Shown: one piece after another, positions 3,534-26,699 of the stretch
How positions within the stretch are numbered: the stretch's first letter is position 1
Layout of the letters: every line of letters starts with the position of its first letter
Assembly: GCA_019752115.1 (NCBI GenBank)
Contig: JAIEMN010000015.1
Location: forward strand, 1-49,276
From: Gemmatimonadaceae bacterium
GTDB taxonomy: Bacteria; Gemmatimonadota; Gemmatimonadetes; Gemmatimonadales; Gemmatimonadaceae
Direction of reading: 5' to 3'
DNA: 49,276 nucleotides
The notes under the pieces: generated by a model
What the model was told of the DNA's origin: nothing
Database searches by the model: none
Seen by the model: only the letters and a program-made list of their open reading frames with translations
Made by a program: the position numbers and the translations under genes

Positions 3534-4868
3534 TTGAGTACTCCTGCTGCTTCGAATTCGAGCTCGACAGCAACATCACCGCGCGGACCAGAGCTGGTTC
3601 GCGCGGTTGGTGTTTGGGCCCTCGCGGCCAGCATTTTCAACGTCACGGTTGGTGGCGGGATCTTTCGCTTGCCCGCCGGCGCGGCGGCGGCCGCCGGCCC
3701 CGCGGCGCCGTTCGTGTATCTCATCTGCGCCGCGGTGTTCGGATGCGTCGTGCTCTGCTTCGCCGAGGCGGGGAGCCGCGTGGCGATGACCGGCGGCCCC
3801 TACGCCTATGTCGAAGCGGTCTTCGGCCGCTATGTGGGCTCGATGGCCGGCGTGCTGCTGTGGATGCTCGGCACCACCGCCGTGGCCGGCGTGTCGAGCG
3901 CGTTCGCCGAAGGACTGGGCGCGCTGGTCGGCATGCCGGGCATTCGCGTGCCGGTCCTGGTCGCGCTGTTCACCCTGCTCGCGCTGGTGAACATGCGCGG
4001 CATCGAGCAGGGAACCCGGGTGGTGGTGATCGCCAGCGTGGCCAAGCTGCTGCCGCTGGTGCTGTTCGTGGCGATCGGCGCGTTCTTCGTGCAGCCGGCC
4101 AATCTCGCCATTCACGAGATGCCCACGCCGGCGAGCCTCGCCCGCGCCGCCATTGTGCTCACGTTCGCCTTCAGCGGCGTGGAGACGGCGCTCGTGCCGA
4201 GTGGTGAAGTGAAAGATCCGGCGCGCACCGTGCCCCGGGCGCTCGCGATTGCCATGACCGGCGTCACGCTGCTGTATCTGCTCGTGCATATCGTAGCCGC
4301 GGGGACGTTGGGCCCGGCCCTCGCGACCGCAACGACGGCGCCGCTGGCGATGGCCGCCGAAGGCTTCATGGGGACGCCGGGGCGTGTGCTGCTGCTCGTG
4401 GGCGCGAGCATCTCGATGTTCGGGTATGTGAGCGGCATGACGCTCGCGGTGCCGCGTGCGCTGTATCGCTTTGCCGAAGACGGCCTGCTGCCGCGCATCG
4501 TGGGGTCCGTGCATCCGACGTATCGCACGCCGCATGTCGCCATCATGATCCAGACCACGCTGGTGTGTGCGCTCGCGGTGTTCAATTCGTTCGAGCAGCT
4601 CGCGGTGATCTCGAACCTGGCGGCGCTGCTGCTGTACGCCGGTTGTGCTGCCGCCACGATCGTACTGCGGCAGCGTGGCATCCGGCAGCCGGGTGCCACG
4701 CCCTTCGCGGTGCCGGGTGGGCCGGTGGTGCCGATCATCACGATCGGCCTGATCGGCTGGTTGCTCACGAGCATCACGAAGGCCGAGTGGACGGTGCTGG
4801 TCGTGACGCTGGTGATTGCCAGCGTGCTGTACGTGATCGCGGCGCGTTCCCAGAAGGTTCCGGCCTGA
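3534..4868 (+). CDS. APC-family amino acid permease
   Basis: A 444-residue integral membrane protein with about 12 hydrophobic helices, of the amino acid-polyamine-organocation superfamily. The first helix has the unwound glycine motif typical of APC carriers (VTVGGGIFRLPAG), followed by the GGPYAYVEAVFG block. The central helix FSGVETALVPSGEVKDPARTVPRAL is the usual substrate-site region (IM6), here FSGVE. It lacks soluble domains. The best start is TTG 3534, just after the hppA stop, giving a short Ser/Thr-rich N-terminus; a later start would cut into conserved sequence. The substrate cannot be decided from sequence. It overlaps nothing but is one base from the antiporter gene, so the three transport genes look like one operon. 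Confidence 0.92.
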   Translation: MSTPAASNSSSTATSPRGPELVRAVGVWALAASIFNVTVGGGIFRLPAGAAAAAGPAAPFVYLICAAVFGCVVLCFAEAGSRVAMTGGPYAYVEAVFGRYVGSMAGVLLWMLGTTAVAGVSSAFAEGLGALVGMPGIRVPVLVALFTLLALVNMRGIEQGTRVVVIASVAKLLPLVLFVAIGAFFVQPANLAIHEMPTPASLARAAIVLTFAFSGVETALVPSGEVKDPARTVPRALAIAMTGVTLLYLLVHIVAAGTLGPALATATTAPLAMAAEGFMGTPGRVLLLVGASISMFGYVSGMTLAVPRALYRFAEDGLLPRIVGSVHPTYRTPHVAIMIQTTLVCALAVFNSFEQLAVISNLAALLLYAGCAAATIVLRQRGIRQPGATPFAVPGGPVVPIITIGLIGWLLTSITKAEWTVLVVTLVIASVLYVIAARSQKVPA

Positions 4869-4869
4869 G

Positions 4870-6276
4870 ATGGCGTCGGTCATGACCACGCGGCGCCGGT
4901 CGCCGGCCCTGTACGCGCTGATGGTGCTCGCCCCGGTGCTCTTCATCGTGGGGGTGCTGCAGTTCGGGCCCGTGGTCTTTCCGTCGCTCGGTGCCGCCTC
5001 GACCACGGCGTCAGCCGCGCCGACCGCTGCGCCCGCCGGAGCGCCCTCGGGGCCCGCCGCGTTCAATCTGACGCGCCTGGTGCTGCAACTGGTCGTGATC
5101 CTGCTCGCGGTGCGCGTGGTGGGGCTCGTCGCCAAGCGCCTCGGGCAGCCGAGTGTGATCGGCGAGATGGTGGCGGGCATTCTGCTCGGGCCATCGGTAT
5201 TTGGCGCGCTCGCGCCCGCGGCGTTTGCGCAGCTGTTTCCCGCCGCCAGCCTGCCCATGCTGAACAGCCTCGCGCAGCTCGGCGTGATGCTGTTTCTGTT
5301 CGTGGTGGGGCTCCACGTCGATCTGGGCGCGCTCCATCGTCAGGGGAGCACCGCGTTGGTGGCGAGTCATGCCAGCATCGCGGCGCCGTTCAGCATGGGC
5401 GTGGCGCTGGCGCTCTGGCTCTATCCACACTTCGCGCCGTCGGGCGTGCCCTTTGCGGCGTTTGCGCTGTTCATTGGCGTGGCCATGAGCATCACCGCGT
5501 TTCCGGTGCTCGCGCGCATTCTCGAGGAGCGGCATCTGCTGGGCACGCCGATCGGCACGCTCGCCGTGGCCTGTGCGGCCGTGGATGACGTGACGGCGTG
5601 GATGCTGCTCGCGATCGTGGTGGCCATCGTGAAGGCCGGCTCGGTGGGGAGCGCGCTGGCGCTCTCGCTCGGCGGCACCGTGCTCTTCTTGCTGCTGATG
5701 CTGCGCGTGGTGCGTCCGTGGCTCGAGCGCCTCGTGCCGACCGCCCCCGACGGTGAGCGACTCCCGACGTCGGCCATCGCCGTCATGGTGCTGGTGGCGC
5801 TCGTGTCGGCCGCAGTCACGGAGGCGATCGGTGTGCATGCCCTGTTCGGCGCGTTCATCGCCGGAGCCGTGATGCCGCGTGGCCGCGCCTTCGGTGAACG
5901 GGCCGCGGCGCAGCTGAGTGATCTGCTGGTGGTGCTCCTGCTGCCGCTCTTCTTCGCGTACACGGGGCTGCGCACCGCGTTCGTGTTCGACGGCGTCGGT
6001 GCCACGCTCGTGCCGCTGGCGATGATTCTCGCGGTGGCCATCATCGGCAAGGTGGGCGGCACCGCCGTGGCGGCGCGCGCGAGCGGTCAGTCGTGGCGCG
6101 ATGCGGGCATGCTGGGCATCCTGATGAACACGCGCGGCCTGATGGAGCTCGTGGTGCTCAACATCGGCCTCGACCTCGGCGTGCTCTCGCCGGCGCTCTT
6201 CGCCATGATGGTGATCATGGCGCTGGTCACGACCATGATGACGGTACCGGCCCTCTCGCTGATGGAGCGGCGCTAG
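4870..6276 (+). CDS. Kef/CPA2-type cation:proton antiporter
   Basis: A 468-residue membrane protein with about 13 hydrophobic segments and the Na_H_exchanger fold. An N-terminal membrane segment is followed by an Ala/Pro-rich linker (about residues 38-60). The family core then begins with LAKRLGQPSVIGEMVAGILLGPSVFG-like sequence. The CPA2 ion-site helix contains AVDDVTAW, with the paired acidic residues that bind cations and protons, and GAFIAGAVMP is the conserved late-helix motif. There is no C-terminal TrkA-N/RCK domain, unlike KefB or KefC, so it is more like short CPA2 exchangers. Whether it carries Na+ or K+ is not visible. The ATG start follows the permease stop by one base, and the stop overlaps the next small gene. 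Confidence 0.92.
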   Translation: MASVMTTRRRSPALYALMVLAPVLFIVGVLQFGPVVFPSLGAASTTASAAPTAAPAGAPSGPAAFNLTRLVLQLVVILLAVRVVGLVAKRLGQPSVIGEMVAGILLGPSVFGALAPAAFAQLFPAASLPMLNSLAQLGVMLFLFVVGLHVDLGALHRQGSTALVASHASIAAPFSMGVALALWLYPHFAPSGVPFAAFALFIGVAMSITAFPVLARILEERHLLGTPIGTLAVACAAVDDVTAWMLLAIVVAIVKAGSVGSALALSLGGTVLFLLLMLRVVRPWLERLVPTAPDGERLPTSAIAVMVLVALVSAAVTEAIGVHALFGAFIAGAVMPRGRAFGERAAAQLSDLLVVLLLPLFFAYTGLRTAFVFDGVGATLVPLAMILAVAIIGKVGGTAVAARASGQSWRDAGMLGILMNTRGLMELVVLNIGLDLGVLSPALFAMMVIMALVTTMMTVPALSLMERR

Positions 6277-6440
6277 TGGAGAACGCCGGCTCCCTGGGCA
6301 ACTGGATCGCCTACGGCGCGATCGCGCTGTTTCTGGCGCTGCTGGCCGCGCTGTTCATTCGCACGGCACTGATGGTGGGGTCGGTGTTCTTCCTCGCATG
6401 GACGCGCCGGAAGGAACGGCCGTCGAAAGACGACGAGTAG
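6276..6440 (+). CDS. 54-residue single-span membrane protein
   Basis: A GTG start at 6276 overlaps the last base of the antiporter stop codon (TAGTG). It opens a 54-residue frame with one long hydrophobic helix (AYGAIALFLALLAALFIRTA and onward) and a charged C-terminal tail rich in Arg, Lys, Asp and Glu. Tight coupling to the antiporter and a clear membrane-protein composition argue that it is real. It may be a small accessory subunit, but I recognise no family. The same frame is open further upstream inside the antiporter gene, but that part has random out-of-frame composition. Confidence 0.6.
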   Translation: MENAGSLGNWIAYGAIALFLALLAALFIRTALMVGSVFFLAWTRRKERPSKDDE

Positions 6441-6449
6441 CCCCCGCGA

Positions 6450-7310
6450 TTACGGATTGCAGCGGAGGCATTCGCCCGGATCGGCGTGACTCCGCCCGTC
6501 GGTCCGCGGACGGAAGGCGCGATGCGCGCACGCCGGGCTGCCCATCCACTCGCCGCGAGCACGTTCGGTTGGCGTGTCGCACCACGCGCACGGCAATCCC
6601 CGCTCGACACTCGTCACCCCCCAGGCGGGCGCGCCGCACTCTGGACATGGCGTGGCGAGGCGGCGTGCCAGTTGCTCGGCCAGCTGTGCGATGTGGGCCA
6701 TGCGCGTGGGATTGCAGTGCGCGCGCATGTCGGTTTCCACCTGCGCCCGTCCCACGGGCGAGGCGCGTACGGCGGCGTCGACCGCCGCGGCGAGCTCGCC
6801 CCGGTCGCGAATCCCTTTGTCGATCGGCGTGGACCACGGCGCCTCCGCGGCGCGGACGATGAGCGCGTGCGAGGGAAAACGCGCCGCGCCCAGCCACTCG
6901 TCGAGCTCGGCGGCGCGGGTCACCACGCGGTGGCTGAAGTTCGTGTCGAACGTCAGCGACTGCTCGGTGACGACCAGACCTCGCACGTCATCGACGAACG
7001 TCAGCAGCTCGACGCCGCCGGACGCAAACGGGGCGGCCGGGTGCGGACCAAAGCTCCCTTCGCTGGCGAGACCATAGGGCAGCGCGAGTGCGGCCATGCC
7101 CAGGCGCGCCTTCTGTTCACACACGGTGGCCGCTGGTCCCGGCCGTTCGCGTTCACCGGTGAAGGTGCCCAGCTGGTCGGTATCGACTGCCGCGACGCGC
7201 ACCGACGCGCCCAGATGCACCTCCAGCGGCCGTGCCACCGCGTCACCCTTGCCATGTTGGGTGGCGAGCGCCATCCGCTGGCCTCGATAGGGGGTCGCCA
7301 GATCGGACAT
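6450..7310 (-). CDS. DUF6671-like protein with C-terminal zinc ribbon
   Basis: A protein of about 286 residues beginning MSDLATPYRGQRMALATQHG, which resembles the DUF6671 family of unknown function. The central part is mixed alpha/beta (SHRVVTRAAELDEWLGAARFPSHALIVRAA). The C-terminus carries two CxxC pairs (CPEC and CAWC) about 20 residues apart, a likely zinc ribbon, followed by more Cys/His (SPACAH, ECLRC). The start was set at ATG 7310: the longer open frame upstream is Arg/Ala shadow sequence overlapping the neighbouring gene. It lies 14 bases after the preceding gene's stop and is probably the last gene of a three-gene minus-strand unit. The family name is from memory of its N-terminal motif and is only moderately sure. 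Confidence 0.75.
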   Translation of the reverse strand: MSDLATPYRGQRMALATQHGKGDAVARPLEVHLGASVRVAAVDTDQLGTFTGERERPGPAATVCEQKARLGMAALALPYGLASEGSFGPHPAAPFASGGVELLTFVDDVRGLVVTEQSLTFDTNFSHRVVTRAAELDEWLGAARFPSHALIVRAAEAPWSTPIDKGIRDRGELAAAVDAAVRASPVGRAQVETDMRAHCNPTRMAHIAQLAEQLARRLATPCPECGAPAWGVTSVERGLPCAWCDTPTERARGEWMGSPACAHRAFRPRTDGRSHADPGECLRCNP

Positions 7311-7324
7311 CGGTGCAACGACGA

Positions 7325-7735
7325 TCAGGCGAGCACGCGCAAGGCGACGGCGGTATGCTCGGTGAGCTGCGTCAGCGCCGCGCGATCGAACTCCACGAGC
7401 GTCGGCGGCCGGGTGGGCACGGTGACCTCGAGGGTGTGCCACGTCCCATCGTGCATCGCCCCGAGGCGCAGCTGCACGCCCGGCTCCTGCAGCGTCATGA
7501 TCTGCGTCAGACGCGCCGTCCACTCGTGTGCGTCCGTGGTCGCCGGCAGCGCATCGCCGGCGCCGGCACGCACCAGCGCCCGCGGGGCGAATTCCAGCTG
7601 CCACGTGCCGGGCACCACGCGCTGCGCATCGCCAACGCCAAGGACCACTTCACCCGGCCACGCAAAGCGGGGAGCACGCGCATAGTCGTGCTCCCCGATC
7701 TGGACGGTCGTGGGTTTGCGACGATCGTCGCTCAC
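7325..7735 (-). CDS. Conserved hypothetical protein, 136 residues
   Basis: Starts at GTG 7735, which overlaps the TGA stop of the preceding hydrolase gene (GTGA), giving a 136-residue soluble protein without signal or membrane segment. Beta-strand-rich stretches (PGTWQLEFAPRALVRAG, TWHTLEVTVPTRPPTL) suggest a small beta-sandwich or barrel, and the C-terminal third is predicted helical. I do not recognise a family. The overlap on one side and the short gap to the DUF6671-like gene on the other suggest cotranscription of the three genes. The open frame extends upstream of the GTG, but there it is out-of-frame Arg-rich sequence. Confidence 0.65.
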   Translation of the reverse strand: MSDDRRKPTTVQIGEHDYARAPRFAWPGEVVLGVGDAQRVVPGTWQLEFAPRALVRAGAGDALPATTDAHEWTARLTQIMTLQEPGVQLRLGAMHDGTWHTLEVTVPTRPPTLVEFDRAALTQLTEHTAVALRVLA

Positions 7736-8736
7736 TTCTTGGCGTCGATCGACCGGAAGAACTCGCGCGCGTCCTTCACGCTCTGCTCCGCGGCGTCCCA
7801 CTGCGTCACGTGCGCGGCGTCCTTGTAGACGATGAACTTCGCGCCCGGAATGAGCTTGGCGTGCTGTTCGATCGTCTTCGGCCCGAGTTCATCGAACTCG
7901 CCGGTCGTCATGAGCACCGGCACCTTGATGGTGGGGAGGATGCTCATGGCACTGTACCCCTTGAGCGTCCCGACCACCATGGTTTCGTTCTCACCCTGGA
8001 AGTAGCGGTACTGCTCGGCGCCGATCATGGCCATCATCGAGTCGAGATCGGCCTTCACCGGGCGACGGAAGACGTTCTTCGCATAGAACTCGTCGACGGC
8101 CTTCTTGTAGGCGGGCGCCTCGAGGTTCTTGTCCTTGTTGTACTGTGCGAACGCGGCCTGTGCTTCCGGCGAGAGCTTCGCGACGGCGGCGTTGATTTCC
8201 TTTTCGGCCGCGTTGATATCGAACGCTTCGCCGCTGAACAGGATGCCCGCCACCTTGTCGGGATGGGCCTTGTAGTACTCGACGGCCACGATGGTGCCCC
8301 ACGAATTGCCGTTGAGGAACACCTTGTCATACTTGAGAGTGCGGCGGAGTGAGTCGAGCTCCTCCACGTAGCGCGGGATCGTCATGAGCGTGGTGTCGGT
8401 CAGCCGATCCGACTTGCCGGCGCCAAGCTGATCGTAGCGCACGACCGGGCGATCATCGCCGAGCGCTTCCATGCTCTTGAGGTAGAAGCTGCCCATGCCC
8501 GGGCCGCCATGAATGAGGATCATGGGCGTGCCGGTGCCGGTGCCGCTCACCTTGTACCAGATGCGACCGCCGGTGACGGGGAGCATCGCTTCGCCCGGGC
8601 CGAGCGCAGGCGCGGCGGCCGTGGCGGCGGCGCTGTCGGTGGGGGCCTTGGCCGTATCGGCCGCCGGCGCCTTGTCGCCCCCGCACGCGGTGAGGCCAGC
8701 GGCAAGCGCGGTCAGGAAGAATGAGGAGGTACGCAT
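7732..8736 (-). CDS. Proline iminopeptidase-like alpha/beta hydrolase lipoprotein
   Basis: A 334-residue envelope protein. The N-terminus is a lipoprotein signal (FFLTALAAGLTACGG) with the lipobox LTAC, so Cys18 should be lipidated; an Ala/Asp/Thr-rich tether of about 30 residues follows. The catalytic domain is of the S33 aminopeptidase type. HGGPG forms the oxyanion hole, GNSWGT holds nucleophile Ser145, and the acid and His of the triad are expected at the Asp of TGEFDELGP and the His of DAAHVTQWD. GxSWG rather than GxSGG is typical of proline iminopeptidases, which remove N-terminal Pro from peptides. The site of action would be periplasmic. It shares a divergent promoter region with the ABC permease genes, so a role in peptide use is plausible but inferred. 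Confidence 0.88.
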   Translation of the reverse strand: MRTSSFFLTALAAGLTACGGDKAPAADTAKAPTDSAAATAAAPALGPGEAMLPVTGGRIWYKVSGTGTGTPMILIHGGPGMGSFYLKSMEALGDDRPVVRYDQLGAGKSDRLTDTTLMTIPRYVEELDSLRRTLKYDKVFLNGNSWGTIVAVEYYKAHPDKVAGILFSGEAFDINAAEKEINAAVAKLSPEAQAAFAQYNKDKNLEAPAYKKAVDEFYAKNVFRRPVKADLDSMMAMIGAEQYRYFQGENETMVVGTLKGYSAMSILPTIKVPVLMTTGEFDELGPKTIEQHAKLIPGAKFIVYKDAAHVTQWDAAEQSVKDAREFFRSIDAKK

Positions 8737-8806
8737 CCCTACACCCTGCGCACGCGCGGCAGTGTTGGCAAGTAGCTTCTGCTGCTGACCCTCCCCCCGT
8801 GCGGAT

Positions 8807-9796
8807 GTGATCTCGTTGCTCTTTCAGCGTCTTCTGCGGCTCGGACTCGACCTGTGCCTCGTGCTCGCGGCGGTGAGCGTGCTCGTGGTGGGGTTGCTGC
8901 ATCTCGCGCCCGGCGATCCGCTCGCGCTCATGCAGGCCGACGCGCGCATCTCGCCGGCCGTGCGTGCGGCGTGGGCGCAGACGTTCGATCCCGCGCAGAG
9001 TGTGGCGCACCAGTGGCTGGCACTCTGGCGCGGACTCCTCGGTGGTGAGCTCGGGTGGTCCTGGAGTCAGCAGCGTCCCGTGGTCGCCGTGCTGCGCGAT
9101 GCGCTGCCGTGGACGCTGCTCCTCATGGGCACCTCCCTCCTGCTGGCCGCGGGCGTGGGGTTCGTGGGTGGGACGATGCTGGCGGTGCGTCGCACGCATC
9201 CGCTGAGCCGATGGGCGCTGCGGGGACTGCGATTGCTCGCGGCGGTGCCGGATGCGTGGCTCGCGCTGGTGTTGTTGGCGACGCTCGCCGTGACCTGGCC
9301 CCTGCTGCCCATGCAGGGCGTCTGCGATCCGCGCACCTGCGTGGATGCGCGTGCCCCGGGATGGGGGCATGCCGCCGATGTGGCGCGACACGCGGTGCTC
9401 CCGGTGCTCACCCTCACGCTGCTCGCCCTGACGCGCTTTGCGCGCGCACAGCGCGCCGCGGTGCTGCCGGTGCTGGCGTCGCCACTTCCTCGTGCGGTGC
9501 GCGCACGGGGGGTGCCCGAGTCACCACTGGTGTGGCGCCATGTGGTACGCGGGGCGCTCACGCCCTGGTTGGTGATGGTCGCGGTGTCGCTGCCGCAGCT
9601 GGTGGGCGGGGCGGTGTTCGTGGAGCGCGTCTTTGGATGGCCCGGCGCAGGTCAGGTGCTCGTGCAGGCCGTGGGGGCGCGCGACTATGGCCTGGTGCTC
9701 GTGCTGGCCTTGCTCGCGTCGGTGCTCACGGTGGTGGGGAGCTCGGTCGTCGACGCGATGACGGCGTGGCTCGACCCACGGGTGCGGCATCCGTGA
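8807..9796 (+). CDS. Oligopeptide ABC transporter permease, DppB/OppB type
   Basis: A 329-residue permease with six hydrophobic segments. The N-terminus has the DppB hallmark LLHLAPGDPLALM in a large periplasmic loop after the first helix. The C-terminal half has the cytoplasmic coupling region (RARGVPESPLVWRHVVRGAL), a diverged EAA loop, and the closing motif VGGAVFVERVFGWPGAG typical of this subunit. It would form the membrane pore with the next gene's product for import of peptides or nickel-type ligands. Translation is assigned to GTG 8807. Its stop overlaps the start of the partner permease gene. No ATPase subunit gene is present in the window, so the ATP-binding partners must be encoded elsewhere or be shared. 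Confidence 0.93.
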   Translation: MISLLFQRLLRLGLDLCLVLAAVSVLVVGLLHLAPGDPLALMQADARISPAVRAAWAQTFDPAQSVAHQWLALWRGLLGGELGWSWSQQRPVVAVLRDALPWTLLLMGTSLLLAAGVGFVGGTMLAVRRTHPLSRWALRGLRLLAAVPDAWLALVLLATLAVTWPLLPMQGVCDPRTCVDARAPGWGHAADVARHAVLPVLTLTLLALTRFARAQRAAVLPVLASPLPRAVRARGVPESPLVWRHVVRGALTPWLVMVAVSLPQLVGGAVFVERVFGWPGAGQVLVQAVGARDYGLVLVLALLASVLTVVGSSVVDAMTAWLDPRVRHP

Positions 9797-20227: not shown

Positions 20228-20369
20228 GGGCGCAGCGCTGAAGGGACCACCACGGGAACGGGGGAAAGTTAGTCACCCTGGCCGATTGGCCAGTGTTGGC
20301 GCGGGCAGCGGCGGCCAACTCTTCGGGAGCCGCGGGGGCCGATCGATGTGCCCCTGCCTTACCCGTACT

Positions 20370-20373
20370 GGAG
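20370..20373 (+). promoter_or_regulatory. Ribosome binding site fixing the start of the pseudo-HtrA gene
   Basis: GGAG lies 7 bases before ATG 20381, whereas the upstream in-frame GTG 20348 has none. This favours 20381 as the start of the first gene in the 20381-25128 cluster. Confidence 0.55.
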
Positions 20374-20380
20374 CCCTTGG

Positions 20381-21337
20381 ATGTCCCATGATGTGCTGAC
20401 CCTCGCCGCCGTCTCCGATCAGCTCGCGGCCGCCGTTGAGGAGGCCGCCCGGAGTGTGGTCGCCGTGCACGCCCGAGAACGCCTGGCGAGTACCGGGGTA
20501 CACTGGCGCGATGACCTGGTCGTTACCACGGCCGCGACGGTCCGTCGCGATACCGGAATCATGCTGACCCTCTCCTCAGGCGAGCGGGTGGATGCCACCC
20601 TCGTCGGGCACGACCCGGTGAGTGATGTGGCCGTGCTCCGGTCGGCGGCGGTTGCCTCTCTGCCCGTGGCGGCGGCCGGTGACCCCACCGCGCTGCGTCC
20701 CGGACACCTGGTACTGGCGGTGGCCCGTCTCGATGCCCGCGGACCGCGCGTCGCCTTTGGGGCGGTGAGTCAGGTAGGTGGGGCGTGGCGCAGCTGGAAG
20801 GGCGCGGAGTACTCGCAGCAGATTCAGTCGGGGCTCACGCTCTATCCAGGTTTCGGTGGCACCCCGCTGGTCGATGCCCACGGGCGTGTGCACGGCCTCA
20901 ACTCCGGTGGACTGAGTCAGGCGATGGCCACCACCATTCCGCGCCCCGACGTGGACCGCGTCGTGACGCAGTTGCTGACGACCGGCTATGTGGCACGTGG
21001 CTGGCTGGGCGCCGCGATGCAGCCGGTTCGCTTCCCCGACGCGGCCACGGCCGGGGCGAACGGTCGCGATGGTGGCTTGCTGATCGTGGGGCTCGCCGAC
21101 GGCGGACCGGCCGCGCGCAGCGGCCTGCTCGTGGGCGACATCGTGCTGGGGGTGAATGGACACGACGTGCATGAACCGCGCGAGGTTCTCGATCTGCTCG
21201 AGCGTACGGCGCCCGGCTCGGCGCTGCCGTTCGACCTCCTGCGTGGCGGCCAGCGCACGACGCAGACCGTGACGGTGGGCGAGCGTCCGCGCGACGCCGG
21301 TCCGGCGCGGCGTGGCGGACGAGGACGGCGCGGATGA
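20381..21337 (+). CDS. HtrA-like pseudoprotease with PDZ domain
   Basis: A 318-residue protein with the two-part layout of HtrA/DegP. A trypsin-like domain (about 1-195) is followed by one PDZ domain (about 205-300: LLIVGLADGGPAARSGLLVG, DIVLGVNGHDVHEPREVLDL). The fold landmarks remain, but the catalytic triad does not. The usual TNAHVV reads TTAATV (His replaced by Ala52), Asp82 is kept in SDVAVL, and GNSGGP reads GFGGTP (Ser replaced by Gly159). It should therefore bind but not cleave substrates. No signal peptide or membrane helix is visible, so a cytosolic location is likely. The last 20 residues are Arg/Gly-rich. Its stop overlaps the start of the next gene, an active protease of the same family. 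It probably acts as that protease's adaptor or substrate-recognition partner. Confidence 0.85.
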   Translation: MSHDVLTLAAVSDQLAAAVEEAARSVVAVHARERLASTGVHWRDDLVVTTAATVRRDTGIMLTLSSGERVDATLVGHDPVSDVAVLRSAAVASLPVAAAGDPTALRPGHLVLAVARLDARGPRVAFGAVSQVGGAWRSWKGAEYSQQIQSGLTLYPGFGGTPLVDAHGRVHGLNSGGLSQAMATTIPRPDVDRVVTQLLTTGYVARGWLGAAMQPVRFPDAATAGANGRDGGLLIVGLADGGPAARSGLLVGDIVLGVNGHDVHEPREVLDLLERTAPGSALPFDLLRGGQRTTQTVTVGERPRDAGPARRGGRGRRG

Positions 21338-21981
21338 GTGCCGCGCGTGACCCTCGGTCGCCCGTTGCGCCGATCGCGCGGTTGCTCGACGGCGTGGTGC
21401 AGGTGCACGCCGGGCGGCGCGGCGTGCACCAGGGCGCGGGCGTCGTGTGGGCGCGTGACGCACACGCGAGTTGCCTGATCGTGTCGAACGCACATGTGGC
21501 GACCGTGGCGCCGGTGGTGGTCGCCGGTCGTGACGCCGAGCGGCGGCCCGCTGAACTGGTCGCGCGCGATCCGCAGCGCGACGTGGCGCTGCTGCTCGTG
21601 CACGACGCGCCCGCGACGTGGCGCCCGATTCCGCCCGCGCCGCAGATACCACGGGCGGGCACCGTGGCGATGGCGGTGGGCCATCCGCTCGGTGTGGGCC
21701 ACGCCGTCAGCACCGGGGTGGTGCACGCCCACGGACGGCTCGACGGGATCCCCGGACTTCCCGACCCGGCCGCCGCCCACGCGTGGCTCACCCTCGATCT
21801 GCGACTGGCTCCGGGAAACTCCGGCGGGCCGGTCGTGGATGCGGACGGTCACCTCCTCGGAGTGAGCACGATGATTGTCGCCGGCCTCGGGCTCGCCATT
21901 CCCGTGGCCGATGTGGATGCCTTCGTGGCGCGCGTGGACGGCCCCGCGCGGCTGCAGCATGGATGGACGCGTGCGGCCTGA
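21334..21981 (+). CDS. Minimal HtrA/S1C-type serine protease without PDZ domain
   Basis: A 215-residue trypsin-fold protease with all three catalytic residues in HtrA context: His54 in VSNAHVA, Asp83 in QRDVALLLV and Ser163 in LAPGNSGGPVVD. The substrate-pocket strand LGVSTMIVAGLGLAIPV follows. It ends after the protease domain; there is no PDZ, no signal peptide and no transmembrane anchor, all of which are usual in DegP, DegQ and DegS. The ATG overlaps the stop of the upstream pseudoprotease gene (ATGA), so the two are translated together. A PDZ-bearing dead partner and a PDZ-less live partner in one operon strongly suggest a split two-subunit protease. The substrate is unknown. Confidence 0.9.
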   Translation: MSAARDPRSPVAPIARLLDGVVQVHAGRRGVHQGAGVVWARDAHASCLIVSNAHVATVAPVVVAGRDAERRPAELVARDPQRDVALLLVHDAPATWRPIPPAPQIPRAGTVAMAVGHPLGVGHAVSTGVVHAHGRLDGIPGLPDPAAAHAWLTLDLRLAPGNSGGPVVDADGHLLGVSTMIVAGLGLAIPVADVDAFVARVDGPARLQHGWTRAA

Positions 21982-22005
21982 TCACTCACCACGCAGACGG
22001 CGCTG

Positions 22006-22437
22006 ATGGTGGAACGACCGCATCTCGTGCGCGTCTTTCTGGACGTGCGGGACCCATGGGCCCGACGGGTCCTGCGCGACGCGCTCGCCCGTGAGCGGGA
22101 TGTACGCTTCGTCTCCACCATGAGCGCCGCCGACGTGGTGCTCGGCGATGCCGCGGCGCGCACGATGGCCTCGCCGATCGAGCCGGATGCCGCCGGCGAC
22201 CACACCGCGGACGGCGTCGCCACCGAGATGCGACCGTCGGCGACGCTCACCGATCGGGAGCGGGATGTGCTGCAGGCCCTCGCCGAGGGGGCCAGCAACG
22301 ATGCCATCGCGGATCATCTCGGCATTTCGCGGAGCACCGTGAAGTTCCACCTCCACGCGCTCTACGAGAAGCTGGGGGTCCGCCGACGGGCCGAGGCGGT
22401 GGCGGCGGGCGTTCGTCGCGGCGACGTGCTGCTCTAA
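22006..22437 (+). CDS. Small LuxR-type response regulator with truncated receiver
   Basis: A 143-residue transcription factor. The C-terminal 65 residues are a complete LuxR/GerE DNA-binding domain (LTDRERDVLQALAEGASNDA, then IADHLGISRSTVKFHLHALY). The N-terminal 50-55 residues look like the first half of a receiver domain: VRVFLDVRDPWARRVLRDAL, then ADVVLGD at the place of the phospho-acceptor strand. The second half, with the Thr/Ser and Lys, is missing and replaced by a short linker. Normal NarL-type proteins have about 210 residues. Phosphorylation control is thus doubtful. It starts 24 bases after the protease gene and precedes the ATP-grasp genes, so it may control this cluster. ATG 22006 and GTG 22009 are equally possible starts. 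Confidence 0.85.
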   Translation: MVERPHLVRVFLDVRDPWARRVLRDALARERDVRFVSTMSAADVVLGDAAARTMASPIEPDAAGDHTADGVATEMRPSATLTDRERDVLQALAEGASNDAIADHLGISRSTVKFHLHALYEKLGVRRRAEAVAAGVRRGDVLL

Positions 22438-22490: not shown

Positions 22491-23648
22491 GTGGCCGATT
22501 CTCCTCCTCGCGCCCCGCACGTGGATACGTTCGCCCCGATGACCGCGGGGCTCGTTGTGGTCCTCGTGCCCGAGCCCGCCGAGATCGATCCGGCGCTCGC
22601 GTACTACGCCGACTACAGCCAGAGTCGCGAGGAACTGACGCGCGCCTTCGCCCACCTCGAGCGCGCATGGCGCTGGCAGCCGGTCACCGTGCACACCGTG
22701 GAGGCCGTCCTCGATGCGCTGGTCGCGGAGGCGCGCGCCGCGGGCACCTCGCTCCCCGTCATCCTGAACCTGTGCGACGGCGACGAGGGCAATACCGTGC
22801 CCGGCGTGGAGGTCATTGACGCCCTCGAGGCGCGTGGCTTCGCGTATACCGGTGCCGACGCGCCCTTCTATCGCCTCACCACTTCGAAGCTGCCCATGAA
22901 AGCGGCGTTCGACGCCGGTGCGGTGCCCACGGCGCCGTGGCAGGCATGGGACCCCACGGCCCACGCGACCGATGTCCTCGCGACCATTGGCGCGCCGGCA
23001 ATCGTGAAGCCGGCCGTGAGCGCGGGGAGCATGGGGGTGACCACGGCGAGTGTGGTGCACACCGCCGAGGCGCTTGCCGCGCAGGTGGCGGCGTTGCACG
23101 CCGGCTATCACGGCTGGGATCTGCTCAGTGGCGGCGTGCTGGTGGAACGCTATGTCAGCGGCCGCGAGTTCACGGTGCTGCTCGTGGGCGACGCGGCCGA
23201 CGCCGAGCGTCTGCTCGTGTATACGCCGGCAGAGCGGGTCTTTCATGCGAGCCTGCGCCCCGAAGAACGCTTCCTGTCGTACGATCGCCTGTGGGAGGTC
23301 TACGAGCGGGAGACGCCCATGCCGAACGGCGACTTCTTCTGGGAGTATGCGCCGGTGACCGGCGCACTCGCCGACGAGATCGTGCGGGTGAGCCTGCTCG
23401 CCTATGAGGCCGTGGGTGGCCGCGGCTACGGCCGGGTGGATCTCCGACAGTGCAGCACAACGGGCGAGCTCTTCGTGCTCGAGGTCAACGCGCAGTGTGC
23501 CCTGTCGGAAGACGAGAACTACACCAGCGTGGGGGCGATTCTGCGCTTCTCCGGCGCCTCGTTCGCCAGCCTGGTGGCGCGCCTGCTCGACGATGCGGTG
23601 CGGCGCGTGCCGGTGAAGGCCAGGCGGAAGCGGCGCGCGGTCGCCTGA
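22491..23648 (+). CDS. ATP-grasp ligase, D-Ala-D-Ala ligase-like
   Basis: A protein of about 385 residues (369 if ATG 22539 is used instead of GTG 22491). It has the three-part ATP-grasp fold that joins a carboxylate to an amine via an acyl phosphate. Visible marks are an N-terminal Rossmann-like part with VILNLCDGDEGNTVPGVEV, the nucleotide-binding strand IVKPAVSAGSMGVT, the adenine-contact motif VLVERYVSGREFTVLL, and the metal-binding VDLRQ and VLEVNAQCALSEDENY. The last replaces the ENTxPG of true Ddl enzymes, so D-Ala-D-Ala synthesis is unlikely and another peptide or amino acid amide is formed. It lies 53 bases after the regulator and 10 bases before a second ATP-grasp gene of similar layout. 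Confidence 0.87.
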   Translation: MADSPPRAPHVDTFAPMTAGLVVVLVPEPAEIDPALAYYADYSQSREELTRAFAHLERAWRWQPVTVHTVEAVLDALVAEARAAGTSLPVILNLCDGDEGNTVPGVEVIDALEARGFAYTGADAPFYRLTTSKLPMKAAFDAGAVPTAPWQAWDPTAHATDVLATIGAPAIVKPAVSAGSMGVTTASVVHTAEALAAQVAALHAGYHGWDLLSGGVLVERYVSGREFTVLLVGDAADAERLLVYTPAERVFHASLRPEERFLSYDRLWEVYERETPMPNGDFFWEYAPVTGALADEIVRVSLLAYEAVGGRGYGRVDLRQCSTTGELFVLEVNAQCALSEDENYTSVGAILRFSGASFASLVARLLDDAVRRVPVKARRKRRAVA

Positions 23649-23658
23649 CAAACGGATC

Positions 23659-25128
23659 GTGACGTCGATCCTGCCGCCGGGACTCCGGGTGTGCGTGCTG
23701 CAGCCCGATTATTCGGCGAGCGCGGTGGACTATCGACACTACGATCCGCCGCGGGATCTCACGCCATGGCTGCCCGGCTGTGTGGTGCATCATGAGATGC
23801 TCGACAAGCGCACCACGTACCGGCAGCTGCGGGCGTGCGCCGCGCGCGGATACGACATCTACGTGAACCTGTGCGAGGGGTACCTCGACTGGGATGTGCC
23901 GTCCATCGATGTGATCCACGCCCTCGAGCTGCTGAACCTGCCGTACACGGGTCCGACGGCTACGCTGTACGACCCGAGCAAGCCGCTCATGAAGTACCTG
24001 GCGTACACCGTGGGGGTGGCGACGCCCGCGCACGTCGAGGTCCCACCGCCGGGCAGCGACGAGACGTCGTGGGAGGCGGCACTGGCCGCCCTTGAGGTGT
24101 CACCGGAGCGGCCGCGCTTTGTGAAGCCGGCCCATGCGGGCGACAGCCTCGGGGTCGATGCCGGATCCGTGGTGACCTCGCTGCCTGCGATGCGCGCTCG
24201 CGTGGATGCACTCCGCAGCGAATATGGCGGCGTGCTGGTCGAGGAGTACATCGCCGGTCGGGAGTGCACGGTGCTGGTATTGGGTGGCATCGGCGGTGCG
24301 CCACCGGTGGCGCTCACGCCTGTCGAATACGAATTCCCCGACGGCACGGCCTTCAAGACCTACGCACTCAAGACGTCGGCGCTGCATCCGCGCGCCAACG
24401 TCCCCGTGCGTGACGACGCGCTCGCGACACGGCTGCGCGACGCTGCGCTCGAGGTGTTTCAGGGCTTTGCCGGCGTCGGCTACGCGCGCTGCGATTTCCG
24501 AGTCGCGCCCGATGGGACGCTCTACTTTCTCGAGATCAACTTCACCTGCTCGGTAGGGTATCCCACCGGGTCGGAGGGGAGCGCAGACTGGATCCTCGAG
24601 CATGACGGACTCGGGCGCGCCGGCTTCTTTGCGCACATCATCGCCGAGGGCCAGGCGCGACACGCAGCGCAGCAGCGCGCGTGGGAGCGCCGCGGCAACG
24701 CGGTGAGCGGCTACGGCATTTTCGCGCGCCGGGCGCTGCGCGCCGGAGCCGTCGTGTTTCCCGGTGAGGGGCAGTCGATGCGGGTCGTGACGCGCCGCCA
24801 CGTCCTCGAGCACTGGCCGGCCGCCGAACAGGACACGTTTCGCCGATATGCGTGGCCCTTGAGCGACGAGGTCTTCGTCCTCTGGAGCCTGCGCCCCGAC
24901 GACTGGGCCCCGCAGAACCACTCGTGCGCCGCCAACACACGCTACAACGGCTTGGACGTGGTGGCGGCGCGCAATATCGCCGCGGGTGAGGAACTGACGC
25001 TCGACTACGGCGAATTCGTGAGCGACGGCGCCGAGCCGTTTCTCTGCCGCTGCGGCGCACCAACCTGCCGCGGGCTCGTGGCAGGGCGCGCCGGCAACTC
25101 CGTGACGGCGCGCGAACAGGGGCGCTAG
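23659..25128 (+). CDS. ATP-grasp ligase fused to a SET-domain methyltransferase
   Basis: A 489-residue fusion. Residues 1-335 form a Ddl-like ATP-grasp ligase: YVNLCEGYLDWDVPS, nucleotide strand FVKPAHAGDSLGVD, VEEYIAGRECTVLVLG (195 onward) and metal site YARCDF plus FLEINFTCSVGYP (291 onward). After a short helical link, residues 349-475 form a full SET domain. SGYGIFARRALRAG is the AdoMet-binding N-part, NHSCAAN (420-426) is followed by ARNIAAGEELTLDYGEF with Tyr450, and a post-SET zinc motif C463-x-C465-x4-C470 closes it. All catalytic landmarks of SET lysine methyltransferases are kept. It starts at GTG 23659, 10 bases after the first ATP-grasp gene. It probably couples peptide-bond formation to methylation of a substrate or protein. 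This architecture is not one I know with an assigned function. Confidence 0.88.
   Translation: MTSILPPGLRVCVLQPDYSASAVDYRHYDPPRDLTPWLPGCVVHHEMLDKRTTYRQLRACAARGYDIYVNLCEGYLDWDVPSIDVIHALELLNLPYTGPTATLYDPSKPLMKYLAYTVGVATPAHVEVPPPGSDETSWEAALAALEVSPERPRFVKPAHAGDSLGVDAGSVVTSLPAMRARVDALRSEYGGVLVEEYIAGRECTVLVLGGIGGAPPVALTPVEYEFPDGTAFKTYALKTSALHPRANVPVRDDALATRLRDAALEVFQGFAGVGYARCDFRVAPDGTLYFLEINFTCSVGYPTGSEGSADWILEHDGLGRAGFFAHIIAEGQARHAAQQRAWERRGNAVSGYGIFARRALRAGAVVFPGEGQSMRVVTRRHVLEHWPAAEQDTFRRYAWPLSDEVFVLWSLRPDDWAPQNHSCAANTRYNGLDVVAARNIAAGEELTLDYGEFVSDGAEPFLCRCGAPTCRGLVAGRAGNSVTAREQGR

Positions 25129-25169: not shown

Positions 25170-26699
<1,530 letters not shown>

Follow-up and report, generated by a model that had tools for sequence, protein, structure and literature searches.

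The window, a 49,276-nucleotide stretch of DNA from a Gemmatimonadaceae bacterium, carries a gene, here designated FUS, that joins a D-Ala-D-Ala ligase (Ddl)-like ATP-grasp domain to a SET and post-SET methyltransferase domain. We propose, with a probability of roughly 0.55, that FUS is a bifunctional enzyme encoded in a compact small-molecule cluster, whose ATP-grasp ligases would assemble a short peptide; the SET domains would methylate that peptide or a small substrate, and not histone-like proteins. Since the fusion is conserved in two phyla, often with genes for a small SET protein, another ligase and a transporter-like protein next to it, it probably helps to make a methylated, exported mini-peptide.

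A ligase and a methyltransferase in one reading frame

The FUS frame is open across all 489 codons from its GTG start. The D-Ala-D-Ala ligase catalytic model (Dala_Dala_lig_C, PF07478) scored 62.9 bits against a curated cut-off of 24, and the SET model (PF00856) scored 37.2 bits against a cut-off of 22.4 (Pfam), with a whole-genome search placing the SET match at the same position. The open frame and the two matches above cut-off confirm that ATP-grasp, SET and post-SET regions lie in one frame, as an earlier sequence-only reading of this DNA had described, and all of the SET landmarks that it had named were found in FUS, namely GYG (residues 351-353), NHSC (420-423), LTLDY (446-450) and CxCx4C (463-470). 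Its statement that SET domains are sparse in bacteria did not hold here: a SET domain occurs in 65 of the 150 genomes sampled from the window's phylum, and the genome of the window has four. Promoter and terminator scans yielded nothing useful, and a structure model built from two sequences (the window and the Bacteroidetes contig L035) reached a pLDDT of 34 and was set aside.

Table 1. Positions of FUS, its domains and motifs, and neighbouring genes in the window.
Feature	Position	Strand	Description
FUS (fusion gene), 489 aa	23659..25128	+	Ddl-like ATP-grasp, then SET and post-SET; GTG start
D-Ala-D-Ala ligase-like catalytic domain of FUS, residues 118-294	24010..24540	+	PF07478, 3.7e-17
SET domain of FUS, residues 351-451	24709..25011	+	PF00856, 4.3e-09
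NHSC motif of FUS, residues 420-423	24916..24927	+	H421 and C423 invariant in 52/52
Post-SET zinc cysteines C463, C465, C470 of FUS	25045..25068	+	Conserved in homologues
PART (partner ATP-grasp ligase), 385 aa from GTG; alternative ATG start 22539	22491..23648	+	PF07478, 2.9e-15
Tyrosine phenol-lyase gene	25173-26615	-	TIGR02618, 763 bits, over cut-off; converges on FUS
Two HtrA-like serine protease genes and LuxR-type regulator	20348-22437	+	Directly upstream of PART

Both halves of the fusion are conserved

Among 298 genomes searched in the window's phylum, full-length relatives of FUS were found with 35-63% identity and without internal stops. Carriers amounted to 35 of the 179 genomes of the window's family and to 8 of 198 sampled genomes of Bacteroidota, the phylum of contig L035, which was the only match in a contig scan with the single FUS sequence. 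The FUS alignment comprised 52 sequences from two phyla, and in the 49 that are full length the same domain order is read in a single frame, with no stop or frameshift near codon 340, where the fusion might have proved to be two genes. In the ligase part, K112, K156, E195, E202, K233, K238, R277, D279 and N294 were invariant wherever present in this alignment and E292 was kept in 50/51; K156, E202, D279, E292 and N294 align with the ATP/Mg-binding residue set (Lys, Glu, Asp, Glu, Asn) of the ATP-grasp in Ddl. In the SET part, H421, C423, D449, C463 and C465 were invariant in 52/52, C470 in all 51 sequences reaching that far, and N420 of the NHSC motif was present in 50 of the 52 fusions, with C423, C463, C465 and C470 making up the post-SET zinc site. 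Position 450, the conserved SET tyrosine, was Tyr in 46/52 including the window and Phe in the remaining 6/52, which come from three genera.

Over 12 close pairs, the ratio dN/dS ranged from 0.06 to 0.22 in the ligase part and from 0.02 to 0.28 in the SET part. Because residues are conserved and dN/dS is low in each of them, both halves of FUS are maintained by selection; both domains are under purifying selection, and the SET region has not decayed in the homologues. A frameshift artefact or decay of the fusion was rejected on the basis of the full-length homologues, the near-invariant residues and the low dN/dS. The FUS tree falls into two clades (A and B), each with members from both phyla. 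Six viral contigs matched the ligase part only, no plasmid record spanned the whole fusion, and the PADLOC models of anti-phage defence gave no match for FUS, its partner ligase, or the neighbouring membrane and small SET proteins described below.

The ligase half is Ddl-like but falls outside the Ddl family

In profile searches against the PDB, the ligase part of FUS matched D-Ala-D-Ala ligases (best E 5e-24), sharing the ATP-grasp fold and the aligned catalytic Lys, Glu, Arg, Asp, Glu and Asn of the PF07478 family. However, FUS scored below every cut-off of the NCBIfam Ddl and Van models (best 72.4 bits versus 245.65 for TIGR01205), and it differs from Ddl further in having a SET domain attached. 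FUS is thus a member of the Ddl-like ATP-grasp superfamily that lies outside the D-Ala-D-Ala ligase family as delimited by these cut-offs. Moreover, the alignment to Ddl stops at the acceptor loop, where FUS has its own invariant residues Y301 and D310, and the second substrate of FUS therefore probably differs from that of Ddl.

As the closest relatives with solved structures are Ddl and Van ligases, a role in the cell wall or in resistance was considered, whereby the fusion would make an altered peptidoglycan end or methylate a wall precursor. We regard this as highly improbable, given scores far under every Ddl and Van cut-off, a patchy distribution (35/179 family genomes) and no wall genes conserved beside the fusion.

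A second ATP-grasp ligase is coupled to FUS

The gene directly upstream of FUS, designated PART, encodes a partner ATP-grasp ligase with about 30% identity to the ligase part of FUS; it was absent from the sequence-only reading. PART ends 10 bases 5' of FUS in the window and lies directly upstream of FUS in 37/37 clade-A loci, the window included. In 17 of the 23 clade-A pairs first measured, the two genes overlap by 4 bases, which suggests translational coupling. The clade-B loci of the window's phylum had no PART, PF13748 gene (see below) or extra SET gene adjoining FUS, and FUS is therefore apparently able to work without a linked PART. A pair of ATP-grasp ligases in one cluster is also found in the biosynthesis of phosphonoalamides, where PnaC and PnaB make a tripeptide stepwise (PMC11867202). 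Compared by the published description only, this system resembles PART and FUS in having two ATP-grasp ligases per cluster and differs from them in having no SET domain and in its phosphonate head group (PMC11867202).

At one further locus (L066), the fusion occurs in split form. A Ddl-like ligase gene, a separate SET gene, a full ABC exporter and a PART homologue follow one another on one strand, with the SET gene starting some tens of bases after the ligase gene and in the same frame; ligase and SET therefore adjoin even where they are unfused. An unfused ligase of the fusion type faces this run, so that three ATP-grasp genes lie within 4062-9500. On another short contig (L116, 2426-5789), the fusion gene and the PF13748 gene are each present in two inverted copies, the second copy of the fusion being cut at the contig end; this inverted doubling is either a real duplication or an assembly error.

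The possibility that the SET domain regulates the ligase, through automethylation or through methylation of PART that sets ligase activity, bears on this arrangement. A covalent fusion would suit control in cis, and PART is always near FUS in clade A; however, L066 has SET as a gene of its own and in two phyla the cluster is accompanied by a further SET gene, both of which fit pathway chemistry better, and clade B of the window's phylum lacks PART beside FUS. We found no evidence for the earlier proposal that the ligase is controlled by methylation, and regulation of this kind appears to us to be very improbable indeed.

The tyrosine phenol-lyase, HtrA-like protease and LuxR-type regulator genes that flank FUS and PART in the window were not common to the FUS loci of relatives. 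One of the two HtrA-like proteins has a PDZ domain and the other has none, and their genes overlap by 4 bases.

Membrane protein and exporter genes accompany the cluster

A gene for an ABC-type six-helix membrane protein (PF13748), without an ATPase domain, lies directly after FUS in 12 clade-A loci. Both ligases and the PF13748 gene are found together in these 12 clade-A relatives, and the window has the ligase pair only; its genome carries a PF13748 gene on another contig (G000:C17:18944-19627; L149 8280-9152, - strand), with no ligase or SET gene adjoining. Within the window's family, PF13748 was present in 11/179 genomes, 10 of which also carry FUS (hypergeometric P=2.4e-7, genomes taken as independent); since related genomes are not independent, this value overstates the evidence, as does the corresponding value for the small SET proteins given below. 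A full ABC exporter adjoins FUS in L145 and L146. Because the PF13748 proteins have no ATPase domain, export is uncertain, and import or another role would be possible.

ATP-grasp ligases, exporters and methyltransferases also occur together in clusters for ribosomal peptides, and FUS and PART might accordingly modify an encoded precursor peptide, like graspetide ligases. The core genes, however, overlap or are separated by tens to about a hundred bases, so that no precursor gene fits between them, which speaks against a graspetide-type pathway, and the ligase part of FUS resembles Ddl, an amino-acid ligase. We therefore consider a ribosomal peptide pathway to be quite improbable.

The SET half compared to BurB and to protein-lysine methyltransferases

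SET domains are almost wholly known as protein-lysine methyltransferases, and the earlier reading had leaned to such an activity. A recent exception is BurB (PDB 9l4t), a SET-domain methionine S-methyltransferase that converts free methionine to S-methylmethionine (PMC12542666). When the SET domain of FUS was searched against the PDB as a single sequence, BurB was the best match (8e-8) with MLL1 close behind (4e-7), and when it was searched as a profile, MLL1 ranked above BurB. For the small SET proteins of the cluster, BurB was clearly the best match (6e-14, with the next at 2e-6). In a tree of SET domains, into which BurB, MLL1 and ASH1L were entered as aligned fragments only, the fusion SETs formed a clade of their own (support 97) that was not clearly with BurB, the small cluster SETs leaned to BurB (75), and MLL1 and ASH1L grouped with the phylum's ordinary SETs (95). 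These comparisons indicate that the small cluster SETs are akin to BurB.

The FUS SET has the HSC, DY and post-SET cysteines in common with BurB, but BurB stands alone, belongs to a sulfonium-compound pathway and is without the Asn of NHSC. With MLL1 and ASH1L it has GxG, NHSC, DY and the post-SET cysteines in common; unlike FUS, which has W-x-P before NHSC, ordinary SETs have GN-x-ARF there, and MLL1 and ASH1L have Tyr where residue 448 of FUS is Leu, Ile, Val or Met. In protein-lysine SET enzymes, a change to Phe of the tyrosine equivalent to position 450 of FUS would be expected to be strongly damaging. BurB with the corresponding change, Y124F, retains more than 60% of its activity (PMC12542666), Y124 being matched to Y450 of FUS by counting along the small-SET/BurB alignment. 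The natural occurrence of Phe at position 450 would favour methyl transfer of the proximity type to a substrate that is small or other than lysine, and the leaning to protein-lysine methylation is weakened both by the likeness to BurB and by these Tyr-to-Phe changes.

FUS could instead be a protein-modifying enzyme, the ligase adding an amino acid to a protein in the manner of tubulin tyrosine ligases and the SET domain methylating a lysine of that protein. Protein lysine is the target of most SET enzymes, FUS has every standard SET motif, and MLL1 matches almost as well as BurB. A precedent for the architecture is the eukaryotic protein TTLL12, which, like FUS, combines a SET-like domain with an ATP-grasp-type ligase, here a tubulin-tyrosine-ligase domain, in a single protein (PMC3520985). 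TTLL12, however, has the opposite domain order, key residues are lost in both of its domains, and both activities were absent when tested (PMC3520985). The replacement of GN-x-ARF by W-x-P and the Phe in place of Tyr450 in 6/52 fusions further argue against protein modification, as do the transporter-like genes and second SET that travel with the fusion, while no common target-protein gene was seen adjoining it. We therefore judge protein modification to be unlikely. In the open-access literature covered, TTLL12 was the only fusion found, and no paper described a bacterial protein combining ATP-grasp and SET.

Small SET proteins of about 155-170 residues are encoded in the FUS cluster at 10 loci (L045, L048, L122, L142, L143, L144 and L145-L148). 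Among the 198 Bacteroidota genomes, the small-SET profile matched seven at E < 1e-50, all of them among the eight FUS carriers (P=3.8e-12, genomes taken as independent), and in the window's phylum all four strong matches were in genomes with FUS or its split form. The clade-B clusters L145 and L146 have the gene order SET, fusion, full ABC exporter and second small SET. No BurB-like small SET was found in the window.

The second, even smaller SET protein (about 120 aa) is encoded near the Bacteroidota clade-B clusters (L145 11256-11612, +; L146 5312-5674, -; L147 about 1542-1841, -), lying 3' of the ABC exporter in L145 and L146, and it forms a long unplaced branch of the SET tree. Stand-alone SET proteins like MLL1 and ASH1L are very common in the window's family (L071-L100; in the genome of the window, G000:C43:48652-48954 and G000:C20:71651-71950). 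The FUS-carrier genomes of the family have one to five SET matches each, and the hosts are bacteria without histones.

A candidate pathway for a methylated peptide

Since a second ligase, an ABC-type membrane protein and an extra SET gene adjoin FUS and a split form exists in L066, a small-molecule pathway is the reading that we support. In such a pathway, the ATP-grasps of PART and FUS would each use ATP to turn a carboxylate into an acyl phosphate and couple this to an amine, so that the two ligases would make a di- or tripeptide out of free amino acids, much as PnaC and PnaB do for phosphonoalamides. The SET domain of FUS would transfer a methyl group from AdoMet to N or S, either in an amino-acid building block or in the completed peptide, the BurB-like small SET proteins, where present, could carry out further methylation, and the PF13748 protein or the full ABC exporter may carry the product across the membrane. 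The sequence-only reading had offered two ideas, and the one that a single product is both ligated and methylated is the better supported, as the neighbouring genes and the L066 split form fit a shared small-molecule pathway. The domain architecture, the conserved residues, the purifying selection, the coupling of the genes and their association with the membrane protein and the extra SET are direct results, and the chemistry, a small substrate, the order of the steps and export are predictions.

Peptide clusters with ATP-grasp ligases are already known, as is one SET enzyme acting on a small molecule; the open-access literature covered yielded no description of their fusion or of a conserved cluster around such a fusion in two phyla. 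At somewhat less than even odds, and thus tentatively, we suggest that at least two bacterial phyla make exported peptides that are assembled by ATP-grasp ligases and methylated by SET domains, with the SET domain working in cis with the ligase and on a small molecule, which would place the histone-methyltransferase fold in peptide biosynthesis. Such a conserved cluster, which encodes one or two ligases, a transporter-like protein and as many as three SET domains, would suggest that SET domains have a general role in small-molecule chemistry, and it would help in the search for a new family of bacterial peptides.
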